25,827 nt of DNA from a virus. Below, piece after piece: positions 13,683-21,533 of this stretch. Positions within the stretch are counted from its first letter, which is position 1, and each line of letters starts with the position of its first letter. A program made the translations under genes and the position numbers. The notes beneath the pieces were generated by a model, which was not told where the DNA came from, searched no databases, and was given only the letters and a program-made list of their open reading frames with translations. The stretch is taken from the IMG/VR virus record IMGVR_UViG_3300030333_003802, positions 30,158-55,984 of that record; one strand, 5' to 3'.

Positions 13683-14774
13683 TTAATAAATTAACCAATT
13701 AAATCCAACTTTAGACTCATAACTTTGTACATCGTACATATTCAGATATCTTCCTTCTAAGAAAACACCAAATTTGTCAGTAAGTTTCCATCCATATACT
13801 AAACCTAAGTCATAATCCATTCCATTTTCAGCTACGTCATAATTAAATGAATAATCAGACATACCTTTTGTTACTGGATATGCAGTAGCCCAAAAGTGAA
13901 ACCAGTTTTTAGGCATATATCTGTAATAATCTGCACCAACTGATAAACTTAATTCGTTTTGATACCCTAAATCTCTAGCGTATTCTTCGTTATATTCTCT
14001 AACAATTTCTCCATATACTTGAGTATAAAACTCTTCATCAGTAGTTGCTACAAGATTTCCTTCAGCATCCCACCATAGATAATCAAAAAATTCATATCCG
14101 TATTGAGTAAATTGTTGTTCAAAAGAATCTGTATATCCATAGAAATAAGCAAATTCCCAAAATGGAATATATTCACTAGTATCTATACCTTGTTCATCCC
14201 ACCATAAATCAATAGGTAAAAAGTCTAAATAAGCTGGATGCATTCTTCCAGCAACACCCATAGATAAAGCAAGATTACCAAAATCTTTTTTAAATCGCAT
14301 ATCTAAAGCTGCGAACTCTACATCTTCTAATCCTCTAAAATCGTAATTAGCTTTTGCGATAAATTTACTTCCCATATATCTAAGCATAAATTGTTGGTTT
14401 GTAAATTCTTCTTCAAACTCTTTATGGTCTGAATATTCAATTACATATTCCCAACCAGTAGGAACATTACCAATAGCAACGCTTTCATTAATAGGTGCTT
14501 CTTTACCAGTATACCACACTTCAGGTTTATTTTCATACCCAAATCGTGCTAATTTTCTAATACCAAAAGTCATAACTGAATTGTCATCTAACTCTTGTTG
14601 TAGTTCCTGTAATTGCCCACCTGTTACTTGGTATTGCAATTCTTTAGATATTGGGCTACTAAGGCTATATGCGCCGTATATAGTGCTAAATTTAAAGAAG
14701 TCTTGTGCTGATAAAGTACCTACTAGCAATAGACAGCCTAATATTTGTTTATACCATTTACTTAAATAATACAT
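13683..14774 (-). CDS. Secreted outer-membrane beta-barrel-like protein, 363 aa
   Basis: An N-terminal Sec signal peptide is visible: YLSKWYKQ, hydrophobic ILGCLLLVGTL, and a likely cut after LSA (residue 23) before QDFFKF. The mature part is very rich in Tyr, Phe and Trp with alternating polar/hydrophobic strands typical of outer-membrane barrels (FMLRYMGSKFIAKANYDF, ALDMRFKKDFGNLALSMGV, LSVGADYYRYM, YDLGLVYGWKL, FGVFLEGRYLNMY) and ends on an aromatic residue (FNWLIY). An aromatic acidic insertion (about 188-255) contains LWWDE/LWWDA twice. Cys14 is too early and in poor context for a lipobox. Coupled to the secreted thioredoxin-like gene by TAATG and followed by the Cys peptide and holin. 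Possible roles are outer-membrane disruption, receptor blocking or a host porin mimic. All are inference. Confidence 0.7.
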   Translation of the reverse strand: MYYLSKWYKQILGCLLLVGTLSAQDFFKFSTIYGAYSLSSPISKELQYQVTGGQLQELQQELDDNSVMTFGIRKLARFGYENKPEVWYTGKEAPINESVAIGNVPTGWEYVIEYSDHKEFEEEFTNQQFMLRYMGSKFIAKANYDFRGLEDVEFAALDMRFKKDFGNLALSMGVAGRMHPAYLDFLPIDLWWDEQGIDTSEYIPFWEFAYFYGYTDSFEQQFTQYGYEFFDYLWWDAEGNLVATTDEEFYTQVYGEIVREYNEEYARDLGYQNELSLSVGADYYRYMPKNWFHFWATAYPVTKGMSDYSFNYDVAENGMDYDLGLVYGWKLTDKFGVFLEGRYLNMYDVQSYESKVGFNWLIY

Positions 14775-15184
14775 TATTCAAATCTCCTTAACATCATTTC
14801 ATCAATTTCATCTTTAATTTGTTCAATTATAGATTTTTCATCTAAGTTAAAAGATAACCCAGCTTCAAACCTCTTTATTTCTTTACCGTATTCAAACATA
14901 ATAATAGTAGGAACTGATTGAATTTTCCATTCAGCCGCTATAATTGCTCCATATTCTTTGTTATCAATACTAGCATTAAACCAATTACAATTTTTGATTT
15001 TGCCGTATTTATCCAAATTAATAGAAGCTCTTGCGTTCCAGTCTGCATTTACTTGAACAATTACACATTCATTTTGACTAAGTAATTGTATTTGTTGTAA
15101 ATCTTTTAGTTTACCTTGTGAGTGTAATGGCGTAAGCCACAACAGCAAACCAAGTAACGATAAAATACCATAATATAAGTTCAT
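14774..15184 (-). CDS. Exported thioredoxin-fold protein lacking the CxxC active site, 136 aa
   Basis: A signal peptide covers residues 1-23 (GILSLLGLLLWLTP then HSQ). The mature part follows the thioredoxin fold: strand VIVQVNADW (41-49), helix start, strand with NASID, then WKIQSVPTIIMFEYG (86-100) with the cis-Pro loop SVPT (Pro92), and KRFEAGL before the last helix. Where thioredoxins have W-C-x-x-C, this has W-N-A-R-A (residues 49-53), so both redox cysteines are absent. Two other cysteines remain (40 and 66). It is probably a periplasmic binding or chaperone-like thioredoxin relative and not an oxidoreductase. SD GAGGT lies 6 bases before the ATG, and the stop overlaps the barrel-like gene (TAATG), so the two may be made in matched amounts and work together. 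Confidence 0.75.
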   Translation of the reverse strand: MNLYYGILSLLGLLLWLTPLHSQGKLKDLQQIQLLSQNECVIVQVNADWNARASINLDKYGKIKNCNWFNASIDNKEYGAIIAAEWKIQSVPTIIMFEYGKEIKRFEAGLSFNLDEKSIIEQIKDEIDEMMLRRFE

Positions 15185-15754: not shown

Positions 15755-16405
15755 TTAATTTAAATCATTATTATCCACAATTAATTTAGGTGCATAATAA
15801 GTATTACCTTCGCCTTTTAAGTACCAATCTACTCTAGCTTTTTCAGGTATTGTTAAATTAACTGATTCAAAATCTATCCTACTCTTTCTTTCAAATTGTT
15901 GTATTTCGTGTACTTTTTTAATGTATTTTTGTACTCCGTCATACTGACTTTCTTCTTGTAAAAAATTATTATACCAAGTAAGTATAGTCCCTTCTTTACA
16001 ATGTTGCATTATTCTGGTAGGAAAATATCTTTTATTTATCATATCACCAAAACCATCATAAAATACACCATCGTATTTTTTATCAGTAGGTATATCGTCA
16101 TACCAATCGCCTTTAACTGGTATTACATTAGGTTTATCTTTAGCCCATTCTACTAATGCGTCATATATGCCGTCATTTATTTCAATAATCGTATGTGATT
16201 CAATATCTTTTTCTTGTATTAAACCAGCACTAATTCCCATACCAAAACCAAATTCTAATATATGTCCACCATTAGCACATACAATATCAGCGTGTTTTTG
16301 CATAATAGGAGTTTCCCAAGTAGACATTACATCCCACCCAGTAGCTTCATCTATAATGCAATCTTCTTTAATTGTATAGTTTGCTGCATATGCGTATCCC
16401 TTCAT
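15755..16405 (-). CDS. Class I SAM methyltransferase resembling guanidinoacetate/arginine N-methyltransferases, 216 aa
   Basis: Transfers a methyl group from S-adenosylmethionine. The acceptor is unknown. Landmarks are VMSTWETPIMQKHAD (about residues 26-40), motif I HILEFGFGMGISAGLIQ (48-64), acidic strand HTIIEINDG (71-79), VIPVKGDWYDDI (94-105) and YDGVFYDGFG (111-120). The WETP segment, E-x-G-F-G-M, IIE-x-ND-G and YD-G-x-x-YD are hallmarks of the GAMT/RMT2 group that methylates guanidino groups, including an aspartate (here Asp117) at the acceptor-binding place. The C-terminal part (after about 140) is less similar. It overlaps the 103-aa gene by ATGA, and GGAGGT inside that gene is its ribosome binding site. 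A phage copy between fibre and lysis genes is unusual. It could modify a virion protein or a small host metabolite. Confidence 0.8.
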   Translation of the reverse strand: MKGYAYAANYTIKEDCIIDEATGWDVMSTWETPIMQKHADIVCANGGHILEFGFGMGISAGLIQEKDIESHTIIEINDGIYDALVEWAKDKPNVIPVKGDWYDDIPTDKKYDGVFYDGFGDMINKRYFPTRIMQHCKEGTILTWYNNFLQEESQYDGVQKYIKKVHEIQQFERKSRIDFESVNLTIPEKARVDWYLKGEGNTYYAPKLIVDNNDLN

Positions 16406-16713
16406 CGACCAGGACCTCCACCAGCAACGTGTTCTCCACCTATAAGTTCAGACATTTTATACGGAGCTTGTTCTATAGCCAATGTTTGAGCTGCTGTAAT
16501 GTTTTGTTGAGTAGATTGAAAATCACTATTAGTGCCTCCAATTTTATCAAACTCATCTCCAGGTCCACCATCGTTAGCAAAGGTCATACCTTCGCCACCA
16601 GTAGATAATCCTTTTAAACTAATATTTGCCGTTTCTTGAACAACAGTAGCTTCACCTACCGCTGAACCATTACTAAACAATCCTACATTAGTACTTCCTA
16701 CTGTAACGCCCAT
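16402..16713 (-). CDS. Glycine-rich small protein of unknown function, 103 aa, ending GGGPGR
   Basis: Not recognised. It is rich in Gly, Thr, Ser and Asn (GVTVGSTNVGLFSNGSAVGE, then STGGEGMTFANDGGPGDEFD), has a short helical part (NITAAQTLAIEQAPYKMSEL) and ends HVAGGGPGR. It has no signal peptide or TM helix. It resembles small fibre-associated or virion proteins. AAAGG lies 8 bases before the ATG. Its stop overlaps the methyltransferase ATG (ATGA), so the two are translationally coupled, and the terminal Gly codons contain that gene's GGAGGT ribosome binding site. The terminal Gly-Arg makes it a candidate substrate of the methyltransferase, but ribosome-binding-site constraint explains the glycines equally well. 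Confidence 0.65.
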   Translation of the reverse strand: MGVTVGSTNVGLFSNGSAVGEATVVQETANISLKGLSTGGEGMTFANDGGPGDEFDKIGGTNSDFQSTQQNITAAQTLAIEQAPYKMSELIGGEHVAGGGPGR

Positions 16714-16717
16714 TTAA

Positions 16718-16957
16718 TTAACCTTTAATTTTTTTATATTCAGCAATGTCTGCTTTAAGTTCAGTAACTTGTGCTTCTGCTCTTGCTAATTGTTCTTCTG
16801 CGTCTGCTATTGCTACATCAACACCTTTAACTTCGCTATAGTCAATAATAGTTACATCTTTGCCAGATGCATCTTTTACTACTTTAGTGTGTTTAATTTC
16901 AACATTTTTAGACGAAGGTGCTTCTGCTACCGCTTTTTCTGCTATTATTTTAGCCAT
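16718..16957 (-). CDS. Small coiled-coil protein downstream of fibre gene, 79 aa
   Basis: The N-terminus is Ala/Lys-rich (MAKIIAEKAVAEAPSS), the middle is a short beta-like part (VTIIDYSEVKG), and residues about 48-77 form a regular coiled coil (AEEQLARAEAQVTELKADI). No membrane or secretion signal. It starts 8 bases inside the end of the 1527-aa fibre gene, with AGGAG 7 bases upstream of the ATG. Small coiled-coil genes directly after fibre genes often act in fibre folding or attachment, but no specific family was recognised. The 57-aa protein at 15.6 kb looks similar in its coil. Confidence 0.65.
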   Translation of the reverse strand: MAKIIAEKAVAEAPSSKNVEIKHTKVVKDASGKDVTIIDYSEVKGVDVAIADAEEQLARAEAQVTELKADIAEYKKIKG

Positions 16958-19900
16958 TATATTCTCCTAATTTAGTTTTAAGTTCATTTATTTGAACTTG
17001 TTGTTCTTGTATAGCTTTTATTAATACGGAAGCTAATTTACCGTAATCTACTACTTTGTGTGTTCCTTCTGAACCACCAATACTTTTTACATCTTGAACT
17101 ACTTCTGGTATAATTTCTTCTATTTCTTGAGCAATAACACCTATATCGTGTTTACCTTTTCTTTTTTTAATCCAATCATATTCTACTGCTCTCATTTTCA
17201 TTACATCAGATAACCCGTAAGAAGTATCTTTAATATTCTTTTTAAACTTTTTATCTGAACCTACTGAACTAGAAAAAGCTATAACATCTTCGTCTGCGTG
17301 AAAATCTCCATTATCATGCATCATAAATAAACCTTGGTCGTTACTTAATCCAGCATACGTTGAACCACCTACACCAAAATGCATTTCAGTTCCACTCCCT
17401 AAACACCATATACCACTATGTTTAGTATCTGTAAAGTGAATACCTCCTCCATAACTACCAGATAAATTAATTGCCATATTTGTATCGGCATTTGGATTTG
17501 CATTTCTACTTATAGTTATACCAGCAGACCCCATTTTTAATCTTTCTACTGCATCAGTATGAAATTTTATTTCAGAAGCTTCTATAGTCATTCTATCGTC
17601 ATTATTGGTAGTTCTTCTTAAGTATAAATCATTTCCTTGTCCAGATATATAACCTGAATTACAAATTATATCTCCAGTAGAAAATAAACTAGCATTACTT
17701 CCATCTGCTTGTTTAACATATAATGTTCCACCACTTGCAACAATACCCGTAGCATTAGCATAACTACTATCAGAACTACTATAAAAACCTCCACCTTGAT
17801 TAGTACCAGCTTCATAAGCAAAATGACTACCATCTATAATTGTAGACATTTGATTATTCTTTAATGCCCAAGACATTACTCCACCACCATTATCTAAAGT
17901 AAATACTCTAGTCCATCCATTGCTTCCCAAGTCTCCAAACCAACTACCATTTTCAGTCATAACTGGTTTATTCCCGTTAGCTGTAACACTACCTTTAAAT
18001 ACTGCATTACCACTATTATTAATAGTAAGCCAAGTATCTGTCATAGGAGCAGTAACACTGTTAGTTATAGAACCAGTTTCAACGTCTGAATCTCCTACCG
18101 CAAATACATTATCTGCTACCACAGCCATACCATGACCAGCAGTACCATTACCACTTGCTTTTAAATATACATAATCACCAAGATTAGTTCCATAACCATT
18201 ATATACAACATCGTGAGTTTGAGCATTGCTCCAAGCGTCTACATATCTTCTTATAGTTGTTCCACTACTATTTACTTGATATTCATTTGTTGTTCTAACT
18301 TGCCCACTAGTTAATGTTCCACCAGCATCTACTCTAAATTCTTCATTATTATCTACAATAACTCTTGTATAGTCTGCTGTAATATCTATTCTATCAGCAC
18401 TAGCATCTGTTCTTCTTAAACTTAAATCTTCATCATACGAAGTAATAATACCGCTATCTACTGTAATTTGTTTATTAAAGTAAAATTTGCTTCTATCAGT
18501 ATTAATATGTCCCCAACCACTATTAGCTGGTCCTAATTCTATTAATCCATGGTCAGTTGTAAATCTATGATAATTTCCAGATGCTGCATGAAAATGTACT
18601 CTATCATCATCTACATACATTTCCGCATAATCACTTGTATCTCCTGGCTGATATAATCTTAATTTATTATCATTTTGTAATTGCATAGCAAGTTCATCAC
18701 TACCAGCTCTTGAAGTCCAAAATCTTAAATGTCCAGCTCTACCTCCAGAACTTCCATCTACAAGATAACCTGATATTCTTGCCATAGCTGTTGTTGAACT
18801 ATCTTGATTATGCCCAAATGTTAGACTTCCACCATTACCAGCACTAGTACCTGTGTTTCTTATTTCAAAAATAGGGTTACTATTATAACCTACTTTTGCA
18901 CTACCAGTTTCAGACATTAGAAACATTACTTTACTTGTTGTTCTATTGTAAAAATATAATTGAGAACTATCTTGTTCTATACTTACTACATCAGCACCAC
19001 TTCTAGTAAATCTAATCATGTGGTCGCCATTACCAACTACTCTTAAATCTCCATTTACATCAAGTTTATAACTTGGAGAACCTTCATTTATACCAATTTT
19101 ATCTTCTGAAGCATCTACTTTAAAAAGATTTGCTTGTGTGTCACCTTCTATTCTAAAATCTGAATTATTTCCATCTTCATTAAATACTGCTCCATAATTA
19201 AACGTAGAAGCTCCAGTAACAGTAAGATTGTTTGTTACTGTAAGTCCAGATGAATTAATATACATTTGTTGCGTACCACTACTAGCACCAGTTGTTGCTC
19301 CGCTCCTAAAACTTAATGCACTACCCGATTGAAATATTGCACTTGTACTTGAACCTTCAAAAAATATTCTTGCACTATTAGAGGTAGCTCCAGTATCATT
19401 ATTAATTAATAATCCATCTGCTCCACTATCTGTAATAGTTACTCTACCAGTTAAATCTGATGAACCATTTACTGTTAAATTACCAGCAGCTTTTAATAAT
19501 CCACCATAGATACCTTCTTCGTGTGCAAATCCATAAGTATTTAAATCTGTTAACGCATTTCCGTGCACAGAAAAACCACTAATAGTATCTTCTATTGTAG
19601 GTGTGTGTATTGTATGGTCTGAGTAATGATTATTATCTCCCATACGAAATATTTTAGCTTCATAAGAAGAACTTACTGTTACATAAACTTGAAGAACTTT
19701 TTCTCCATAAGTGTTATCACTATCTTGACTTAATACTCTAACACCAGTTATTCTATTAGTATGTCCACCGCAATTAATTACTGTAAAATTGCTATCAGCA
19801 TAACTTCTTAACCAATGTATTCTAATAAATCCGTGGTCCCCAGAATCTCCGTCTGTAACTAATATTTCTCCAGCTCTTCTACCGCTTGTGTTAGTAGCTA

Positions 19901-21533
19901 CTGTCATCCAACCTGGACCTACTGTAGCAGAAGCACTTCCTTGTCTTCTAAAAAATCTTGATGAATCGTATCCGTCTAATGTATCAGCGTCTAAGCCACT
20001 TCCACTTCCGTCTACTGTTTTAATAGCAGTTAATATTTCAGCAGCTGATTGGTCTGCAGTAGCACTTGCTTCTATTCCGTCTAATTTACTATGGTCAGAA
20101 CTTGTAAAGGCAACTGATGTAGTTCCATTAATAGTAAGTGCATCAGTTTCTAATGTTCCGTCTACATCTACATTTCCAGATATGTCAAGAGAATTAGCGG
20201 TAACACTACCTTGAACTGTAGTATTATAACCAAGATTAATACTACTTACAGCATTATTTTCACCATTAGTAATTACTTGCAATGGATAAGTACCAGTATT
20301 GTTTAATCTTATACTTAAATTACCTCCGTCTACACCAAACCAAAATTCAGGTGTATTTGTTACTCCACTTTCTTCAATTAAAATAAATGGAGATGAACCA
20401 TCCATGTGTAGTCTGTTGTTTATTTGTAAAGTAGTTCCGTCAAAGGTAAGGTTAGCTTCTCCATTTAAAGCTGTTGAACTACTAAATGTTGCTATTCTAT
20501 TATCTGAACCATTTGCTACTGCTGATACTGCGCCACCACTTTGAGAATCTACATATGCTTTAACACTTTGTTGTGTAGGAACATGACTAGCACTATTAGA
20601 AGACATATCATCTTCATCTTTAGTTGGAAGCCTATCCATATCAAAAGCTCCACTTGTAATTTTACTTGCTGGTAAATTAGCTACATAAGCATTAGCAATA
20701 GCTGTACCTTGCCAAGTACCATCAGTTACTGTTCCAAATTCCATACCAGCAAGAGCATTGCCGTCAGTTAAAAATTTAAATGAATTAGAAACGTTTTGTA
20801 TTCTATCTTCTCCAGCAACATTACCAATAGTAAACCCACCACTTACCGTACTTTTTATTTTACCAGTTGCAGTTAATGCTCCAGTTACATCTGCGCCTGC
20901 TGAATCAATTCTAAGTTTTTCGCTTGTATTAACAGACACTCCATCTGAAACGCTACCTGCTAATTCAAATGCCATATATTCGCCACCAGAACTATCAGTA
21001 TTTACTTCAATTCTACCTGAGTTACCATCTTGTTCTGGAACTTTATTTCTATGATTAAATGTTACATTAGCATTACCACCACCGTCATTAATAGTTAATG
21101 CTATACCACCACCACCATATCCAGCAATAATATCATTTGTTGCAACAATACTACCCGTATCTGATAGTGGATTAGTATGTACGCCTAAACTACCAGAATC
21201 TATTTTAATCTTTCCAGTAGTAGTTAATTGTGTTCCATTAAAAGTAAGATTAGACTCTGCTTGTATAGCACTTGTGCCATTACCAGTTAATATAGCATTA
21301 GAAGTAAAAGTAGATGCACCAGTACCACCATTAGCTACTGCTAAATCAGTACCAGACCAATTTGAATTATTAATAGTAGCACTACCACCAATAGGTGTTA
21401 AACCAGTAGCTGCAGTAGAGCCATTACCAACATATAGTTCGTTAGTATCGCTTTTATATATTAACTCTCCTGCTTCTGGTGTACCAGCATTTGAGAGATT
21501 AGTACCTCTTTTTATTTTAATCGTATTTGACAT
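16950..21533 (-). CDS. Large tail fibre/spike with C-terminal S74 self-cleaving chaperone, 1527 aa
   Basis: Host-recognition fibre. The N-terminus (SNTIKIKRGT...GELIYKSDTNELYVGNG) is a short attachment domain shared with the 544-aa neighbour. The shaft is repetitive, rich in Gly, Ser, Thr and Asn, with repeats of the type LTVTG.STF and SPSYKLDVNGDLRV. A globular-looking insertion lies around residues 560-690 (HGFIRIHWLRSYADSN, VLQVYVTVSSSYEAKI). The last ~102 residues are an intramolecular chaperone (peptidase S74): SDKKFKKNI supplies the Ser1426/Lys1431 dyad (S-x4-K, as in K1F endosialidase), followed by AVEYDWI, GVIAQEIEEIIPEVV, VDYGKLASVLIKAIQE and a terminal coil. By analogy it cuts itself before Ser1426 after trimer folding. 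AAGGAA precedes the ATG. Confidence 0.93.
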   Translation of the reverse strand: MSNTIKIKRGTNLSNAGTPEAGELIYKSDTNELYVGNGSTAATGLTPIGGSATINNSNWSGTDLAVANGGTGASTFTSNAILTGNGTSAIQAESNLTFNGTQLTTTGKIKIDSGSLGVHTNPLSDTGSIVATNDIIAGYGGGGIALTINDGGGNANVTFNHRNKVPEQDGNSGRIEVNTDSSGGEYMAFELAGSVSDGVSVNTSEKLRIDSAGADVTGALTATGKIKSTVSGGFTIGNVAGEDRIQNVSNSFKFLTDGNALAGMEFGTVTDGTWQGTAIANAYVANLPASKITSGAFDMDRLPTKDEDDMSSNSASHVPTQQSVKAYVDSQSGGAVSAVANGSDNRIATFSSSTALNGEANLTFDGTTLQINNRLHMDGSSPFILIEESGVTNTPEFWFGVDGGNLSIRLNNTGTYPLQVITNGENNAVSSINLGYNTTVQGSVTANSLDISGNVDVDGTLETDALTINGTTSVAFTSSDHSKLDGIEASATADQSAAEILTAIKTVDGSGSGLDADTLDGYDSSRFFRRQGSASATVGPGWMTVATNTSGRRAGEILVTDGDSGDHGFIRIHWLRSYADSNFTVINCGGHTNRITGVRVLSQDSDNTYGEKVLQVYVTVSSSYEAKIFRMGDNNHYSDHTIHTPTIEDTISGFSVHGNALTDLNTYGFAHEEGIYGGLLKAAGNLTVNGSSDLTGRVTITDSGADGLLINNDTGATSNSARIFFEGSSTSAIFQSGSALSFRSGATTGASSGTQQMYINSSGLTVTNNLTVTGASTFNYGAVFNEDGNNSDFRIEGDTQANLFKVDASEDKIGINEGSPSYKLDVNGDLRVVGNGDHMIRFTRSGADVVSIEQDSSQLYFYNRTTSKVMFLMSETGSAKVGYNSNPIFEIRNTGTSAGNGGSLTFGHNQDSSTTAMARISGYLVDGSSGGRAGHLRFWTSRAGSDELAMQLQNDNKLRLYQPGDTSDYAEMYVDDDRVHFHAASGNYHRFTTDHGLIELGPANSGWGHINTDRSKFYFNKQITVDSGIITSYDEDLSLRRTDASADRIDITADYTRVIVDNNEEFRVDAGGTLTSGQVRTTNEYQVNSSGTTIRRYVDAWSNAQTHDVVYNGYGTNLGDYVYLKASGNGTAGHGMAVVADNVFAVGDSDVETGSITNSVTAPMTDTWLTINNSGNAVFKGSVTANGNKPVMTENGSWFGDLGSNGWTRVFTLDNGGGVMSWALKNNQMSTIIDGSHFAYEAGTNQGGGFYSSSDSSYANATGIVASGGTLYVKQADGSNASLFSTGDIICNSGYISGQGNDLYLRRTTNNDDRMTIEASEIKFHTDAVERLKMGSAGITISRNANPNADTNMAINLSGSYGGGIHFTDTKHSGIWCLGSGTEMHFGVGGSTYAGLSNDQGLFMMHDNGDFHADEDVIAFSSSVGSDKKFKKNIKDTSYGLSDVMKMRAVEYDWIKKRKGKHDIGVIAQEIEEIIPEVVQDVKSIGGSEGTHKVVDYGKLASVLIKAIQEQQVQINELKTKLGEYNG

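Follow-up and report, generated by a model that had tools for sequence, protein, structure and literature searches.

A phage branch of the GAMT superfamily encoded in a recurrent structural-gene setting

The methyltransferase gene and its locus

The stretch of DNA analyzed here (the window, 25,827 nucleotides) is the middle part of a 71,658-base IMG/VR virus contig from a marine phage. On its minus strand, positions 15755-16405, the very coordinates of the initial annotation, encode a 216-residue protein that was assigned to the GAMT superfamily of SAM-dependent methyltransferases by its sequence, by profile searches, and by an AlphaFold model. The reading frame is intact, with an ATG start and no internal stops, and it is under purifying selection, the dN/dS against same-clade relatives being 0.07-0.22. 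Its start shares 4 bases (16402-16405) with the stop of the minus-strand gene just upstream (16402-16713), which encodes a 103-residue protein of no assigned function that ends in AGGGPGR and is a candidate substrate of the enzyme. Reading along the minus strand toward the methyltransferase, there is a tail fibre of 1527 residues (16950-21533), then a 79-residue gene of no assigned function (16718-16957), and then the 103-residue gene. The C-terminal part of the fibre resembles other phage tail-fibre proteins (PHROG 5668), and the protein matches the PHROG tail fibre at 3.1e-25. A holin gene lies farther along the same strand. The initial annotation had placed the methyltransferase among late structural genes, and the long minus-strand run around it, with its tail-fibre and holin genes, bears this out; from this gene content, we infer that the run is a late operon.

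Two other minus-strand genes of the window encode a signal-peptide-bearing, thioredoxin-like protein with weak Pfam and NCBIfam matches (14774-15184) and an exported-looking protein of 363 residues (13683-14774). Together with a lysis-like gene, this module recurs in a second contig (L123) and in a contig from a Flavobacteriales metagenome-assembled genome (L377), a distribution that hints at Bacteroidota hosts. Outside the window, inspection of translations from the source record (G000; L164 and L166) revealed what seem to be two sets of genes for large terminase, portal, and capsid-like proteins, and runs of N are present at or near the window's ends. The 71,658-base record may combine two related phages in one scaffold.

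A separate branch of the GAMT superfamily

A guanidinoacetate- or arginine-type methyltransferase had been proposed for this gene, and GAMT is indeed the best match in searches of PDB sequences, profiles, and structures, at a level well outside what chance would give. All four matches in a single-sequence search of all PDB sequences were GAMT (E 5.5e-22 to 1.8e-21), and a profile of 24 phage sequences matched GAMT at 3.6e-28, with the next family at 0.0014. When the AlphaFold model (mean pLDDT 89) was used for a structural search, the five best hits were GAMT entries (E 8e-13 to 7e-12), and the next methyltransferase family appeared only from E 1.9e-7. None of the Pfam, NCBIfam, or PHROG models recognizes the window protein, and no family of the type I-III protein arginine methyltransferases was found among its Pfam or NCBIfam matches.

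The residues expected of such an enzyme are retained. Glu31, in a WETP motif (codon 16313-16315), aligns with Glu45 of GAMT; the SAM-binding motif EFGFGMG (E51-G57, 16235-16255) carries the conserved E51, G53, and G55; and Asp117, in the sequence FYDG (codon 16055-16057), aligns with Asp134 of GAMT, the proton acceptor. Among 76 phage representatives, less than 90% identical to one another, D117, E51, G53, G55, and E75 are kept in all 76, and E31 is kept in 74 of the 75 that are readable at this position. Glu45 is reportedly the second guanidino contact in the GAMT crystal structures of Komoto. Asp134 of GAMT accepts a proton from the guanidino group (PMC12471008, PMC12842229). Thus, the best match is not to an unrelated methyltransferase family, and neither the SAM-binding nor the acceptor residues have been lost; as judged from alignment and model, the window protein is predicted to be a SAM-dependent methyltransferase with a GAMT fold and with both guanidino acids in place. 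In one divergent homologue, located between very long Thr-Pro-repeat proteins (L060, 8001-8531), the equivalent of Glu45 is replaced, with WIRP in place of WETP, and the acceptor has possibly changed.

The initial annotation holds at the level of the superfamily, but the phage proteins stand apart from GAMT. A maximum-likelihood tree was built from 91 sequences, with human and rat GAMT entered as the core region only. The two vertebrate enzymes fall inside a group of cellular homologues (support 98/99, branch 1.74), and all phage sequences lie outside this clade of cellular and vertebrate GAMT; one cellular sequence (L157) forms a long branch whose position is uncertain. A median of 25 residues precedes the VMxxWE motif in the phage proteins, as in the window protein (25), versus about 40-50 in GAMT and about 50 in most cellular homologues, whose long N-terminus contains a conserved Trp. 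In GAMT, an N-terminal lid (about residues 1-42) covers the active site (PMC12842229). Y203 and P206, in the acceptor-side C-terminal region, are conserved only in phages, unlike GAMT. The tree and the N-terminal lengths indicate that the window gene belongs to a separate, phage-specific branch of the GAMT superfamily and is not GAMT proper.

Among cellular members, the one in Desulfamplus (L150) adjoins an amidinotransferase that matches SxtG and AGAT, which ties the superfamily to guanidino chemistry. Bacterial members also occur in PKS/NRPS-like settings, such as this same SxtG/AGAT-like arrangement (L150, 1197-7669) and a member embedded within an NRPS reading frame (L149, 1-1959).

A search of 50,697 phage records returned one homologue, in the uncultured megaphage LR745206, whose record is unannotated, and none in an annotated phage; one profile scan of IMG/VR returned 488 confirmed methyltransferase stretches. 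The best 80 of these 488 were read, and the context counts below come from this sample. Four phage groups were distinguished: C1, the window type; C2, T4-like with a tail sheath gene downstream; C3, with T4-like gene order and the methyltransferase between 2OG-Fe(II) oxygenases; and C4, the remainder. A clear member was present in only 1 of 298 Flavobacteriales genomes, and that one lies on a phage-like contig; a recent host origin was consequently rejected. This single occurrence, together with the spread among phages, indicates a phage-borne gene in the viruses read.

Neighbouring genes and candidate substrates

In 54 of the 76 representatives, the methyltransferase lies directly behind either a fibre with an FNPD-type C-terminal motif (39) or a small protein with a Gly-rich, Arg-terminated tail (15), and in 38 of 76 the next gene encodes an adhesin-like protein of about 230 residues. 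The spacing from the upstream gene has a median of -1 base. Part of the upstream proteins match PHROG tail-fibre families, and many match nothing. The linkage to fibre and adhesin genes recurs in podovirus-like, T4-like (with a tail sheath nearby), and megaphage genomes, the megaphage copy directly following a large fibre-like gene. For phage members of the GAMT superfamily, this structural-gene setting is both unexpected and recurrent.

There are exceptions. One methyltransferase (L058) lies by a SET-domain gene, and three copies (L182-type) were seen by inspection to lie between GNAT-like and sulfotransferase-like genes. SET-domain genes directly adjoin GAMT-like genes both in this phage contig (L058, 7472-8501) and in a bacterial contig (L152, 5851-7084), the latter arrangement having been read by inspection and being possibly split. 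In T4-like contigs (L104, 3425-7812; also L110 and L118), four 2OG-Fe(II)-oxygenase-like genes form a run that encloses the methyltransferase and adjoins a 451-residue protein with a weak intein/Hint match that ends in VHNIPKR. This run is a possible protein-modification island.

The sole family match of the adhesin is one weak hit to CBM96, and its model resembles chondroitin-sulfate- and alginate-binding modules (7.2e-6 and 1.6e-4). All 25 aligned adhesins have R52-G53, which in the model is located in a turn between two strands. A single-sequence scan with the adhesin gave three loci, and a search of the phage collection found none. The idea that the GRGG loop depends on the enzyme was dropped, since the sole adhesin from an enzyme-lacking locus (L251) keeps GRG, as GRGS, and one such case is too few.

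The proteins encoded directly upstream in C1 and C2 share another feature: all 28 distinct sequences end in Arg, and three or more of their final seven residues are Gly. The proteins represent three families that have no detectable similarity apart from the last 12 residues, and among 1738 ORFs of the same contigs, such an end is found only in these three families and in one other ORF. In addition, the terminal Arg of the 103-residue window protein is its only Arg. The consistency of this end, together with the sole Arg, suggested a substrate of the methyltransferase.

Enzyme-lacking relatives, known from partial contigs, keep the same end, as GSGPGR (L140 and L142) or GGGPGR (L144). In C1, the codons for the Gly-rich Arg end double as a ribosome-binding site and overlapping start codon. 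Four unrelated phages (L254, L275, L317, and L320) have an ORF with a C-terminal GGGGGR whose stop overlaps the next start (ATGA), and this junction is apparently a coding habit that combines a ribosome-binding site with an overlap. C2 lacks the overlap, and its terminal Arg codon alternates between CGA and AGA, suggesting that coding convenience may not explain everything. The Gly-rich Arg end was rejected as a proven substrate because both enzyme-lacking relatives and unrelated phages have it. For the same reasons, the terminal Arg of the 103-residue protein is only a candidate methylation target, partly explained by translational coupling.

Proposed role, alternatives, and known systems

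Given the family and the gene context, it is tentatively proposed, with confidence somewhat short of even, that the gene encodes a methyltransferase that acts late and whose substrate is an arginine in a fibre or adhesin encoded nearby. Late in infection, the enzyme would methylate the guanidino group of such an arginine while the attachment protein (a fibre, a small tail-associated protein, or an adhesin) is also being produced, perhaps at the internal nitrogen, the atom that GAMT methylates in guanidinoacetate. Gly-flanked arginines would be the candidate targets: in the large clade, the GRGG loop of the carbohydrate-binding-module-like adhesin, and in the window's clade, the Arg at the Gly-rich end of the protein encoded upstream. 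The methyl group could then tune binding to an acidic surface polysaccharide. The steps of this argument fall in strength, from the acceptor probably being a guanidino group, through this group lying on a protein, to that protein being a neighbour.

The shorter N-terminal lid of the phage enzymes is consistent with a larger substrate. 2OG-Fe(II) oxygenases often modify proteins, and the placement of the C3 gene among them was counted for a role in protein modification. Recent work on marine Cellulophaga phages has detected methyl-arginine on virion proteins, one of which is a putative tail fibre (2026; PMC13288928), and thus such a modification has been reported; the methylated phages encode no known methyltransferase (PMC13288928). 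The phage GAMT-like family is a phage-encoded candidate for this virion methylation, with a short list of candidate substrates, and if the proposal is correct, phages would have their own enzyme for virion arginine methylation. On the other hand, enzyme-lacking relatives keep the candidate arginines, and some copies of the gene lie elsewhere. Virion-protein modification, as suggested in the initial annotation, is consequently favoured but falls short of proof, given the credible non-enzymatic explanation for the upstream terminal Arg. A bolder form of the proposal appears rather unlikely: that these enzymes are their own class of marine-phage protein-arginine methyltransferase, sister to GAMT, which targets the adhesin loop or the terminal Arg of the small protein, so that receptor binding would be set post-translationally and the creatine reading would be wrong for the family.

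An unlikely alternative is that a host component is modified, either a surface structure, for instance to block reinfection, or a guanidino-bearing host protein; the gene would then travel with fibre and adhesin genes because both concern the host surface. This fits an accessory gene in the fibre/adhesin region that is missing from some relatives at the same site, an adhesin that, as modelled, looks polysaccharide-binding, and the rise in host protein methylation in infected Cellulophaga (PMC13288928). However, the close stop/start coupling with late fibre genes is explained no less well by virion assembly.

It is quite improbable that the enzyme has a different acceptor (a small natural product, another amidine or amine, or another protein site) and that its likeness to GAMT reflects ancestry only. 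The superfamily members in NRPS/PKS settings, the C-terminal acceptor-side region with its phage-only Y203 and P206, and the homologue without the Glu45 equivalent would all agree with such a change, but E31 and D117 are kept in nearly all phage members, and no biosynthetic neighbours are present in the phages read.

Nor is it probable that the gene is an auxiliary metabolic gene, encoding a functional GAMT (K00542) whose product in the infected cell is creatine or a similar small methylated guanidine. In a 2024 ocean survey, GAMT is given as the most virus-enriched auxiliary metabolic gene, 85.4-fold over microbial homologues, and a creatine hypothesis is advanced (PMC11360552). In favour of this hypothesis, GAMT is the closest characterized relative, both guanidino acids are kept, and a cellular superfamily member adjoins an amidinotransferase. 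However, this reading predicts no linkage to fibre or adhesin genes, and the phage enzymes lie outside the GAMT clade and have the shorter lid. Furthermore, a search of 21 phage records, with a control that worked, turned up no amidinotransferase, although these records may be fragments and a host could supply the enzyme; a PF02274 search was also negative. A search for guanidino kinases had no working control and is given little weight. The initial annotation's other option, a host guanidino metabolite, is thus weakened by the missing amidinotransferase and by the repeated fibre/adhesin linkage in unrelated phages.

Finally, a nucleic-acid methyltransferase or a decayed gene is scarcely credible: a generic class I fold and a sub-threshold match to Pfam Methyltransf_25 (E 0.11) would allow the former, but no DNA or RNA methyltransferase model of Pfam, NCBIfam, or PHROG claims the protein and inspection found no (D/N/S)PP(Y/F) motif, so that this candidate was rejected and the better fit to the GAMT type that had first been noted is upheld, whereas the conserved residues and purifying selection argue against decay.

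Returning to the proposed methylation of an attachment protein, the nearest and sole clear relative of the phage enzyme, by both sequence and structure, is GAMT (PDB 1xcj, 3orh, and 1khh). The two have in common the SAM motif, WE(T)P with Glu45, YD with Asp134, and the IIE ribose acid; the phage enzyme differs in lying outside the GAMT clade, in its shorter N-terminus, in its fibre/adhesin gene context, and in that no amidinotransferase partner was found. Bacterial GAMT-like enzymes (L150, L151, L153, and others) share the superfamily and the guanidino acids with the phage enzymes but, unlike them, group with vertebrate GAMT and have the longer N-terminus with its Trp. A lead in terms of activity is Rmt2, the type IV arginine methyltransferase of fungi and plants, which presumably is related to GAMT in sequence. 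Rmt2 converts Arg67 of Rpl12 to delta-N-methylarginine (PMC3365026); this methylation of an internal nitrogen of a protein arginine parallels the activity proposed for the phage enzyme.

Among viral structures, the best match to the window protein is BFVD A0A8D9CBY1, "putative guanidinoacetate methyltransferase [uncultured marine phage]" (E 5.6e-17, 30% identity). This protein and the marine-virus "GAMT" of the ocean survey (K00542, PMC11360552) are very probably members of the phage methyltransferase family. In that survey, the marine-virus gene was read as serving creatine synthesis; the gene context seen here argues against the creatine reading. If the phage branch does modify attachment proteins, the GAMT entry of the survey has been misread, and where the survey describes nine populations, the present analysis has hundreds of methyltransferase loci.
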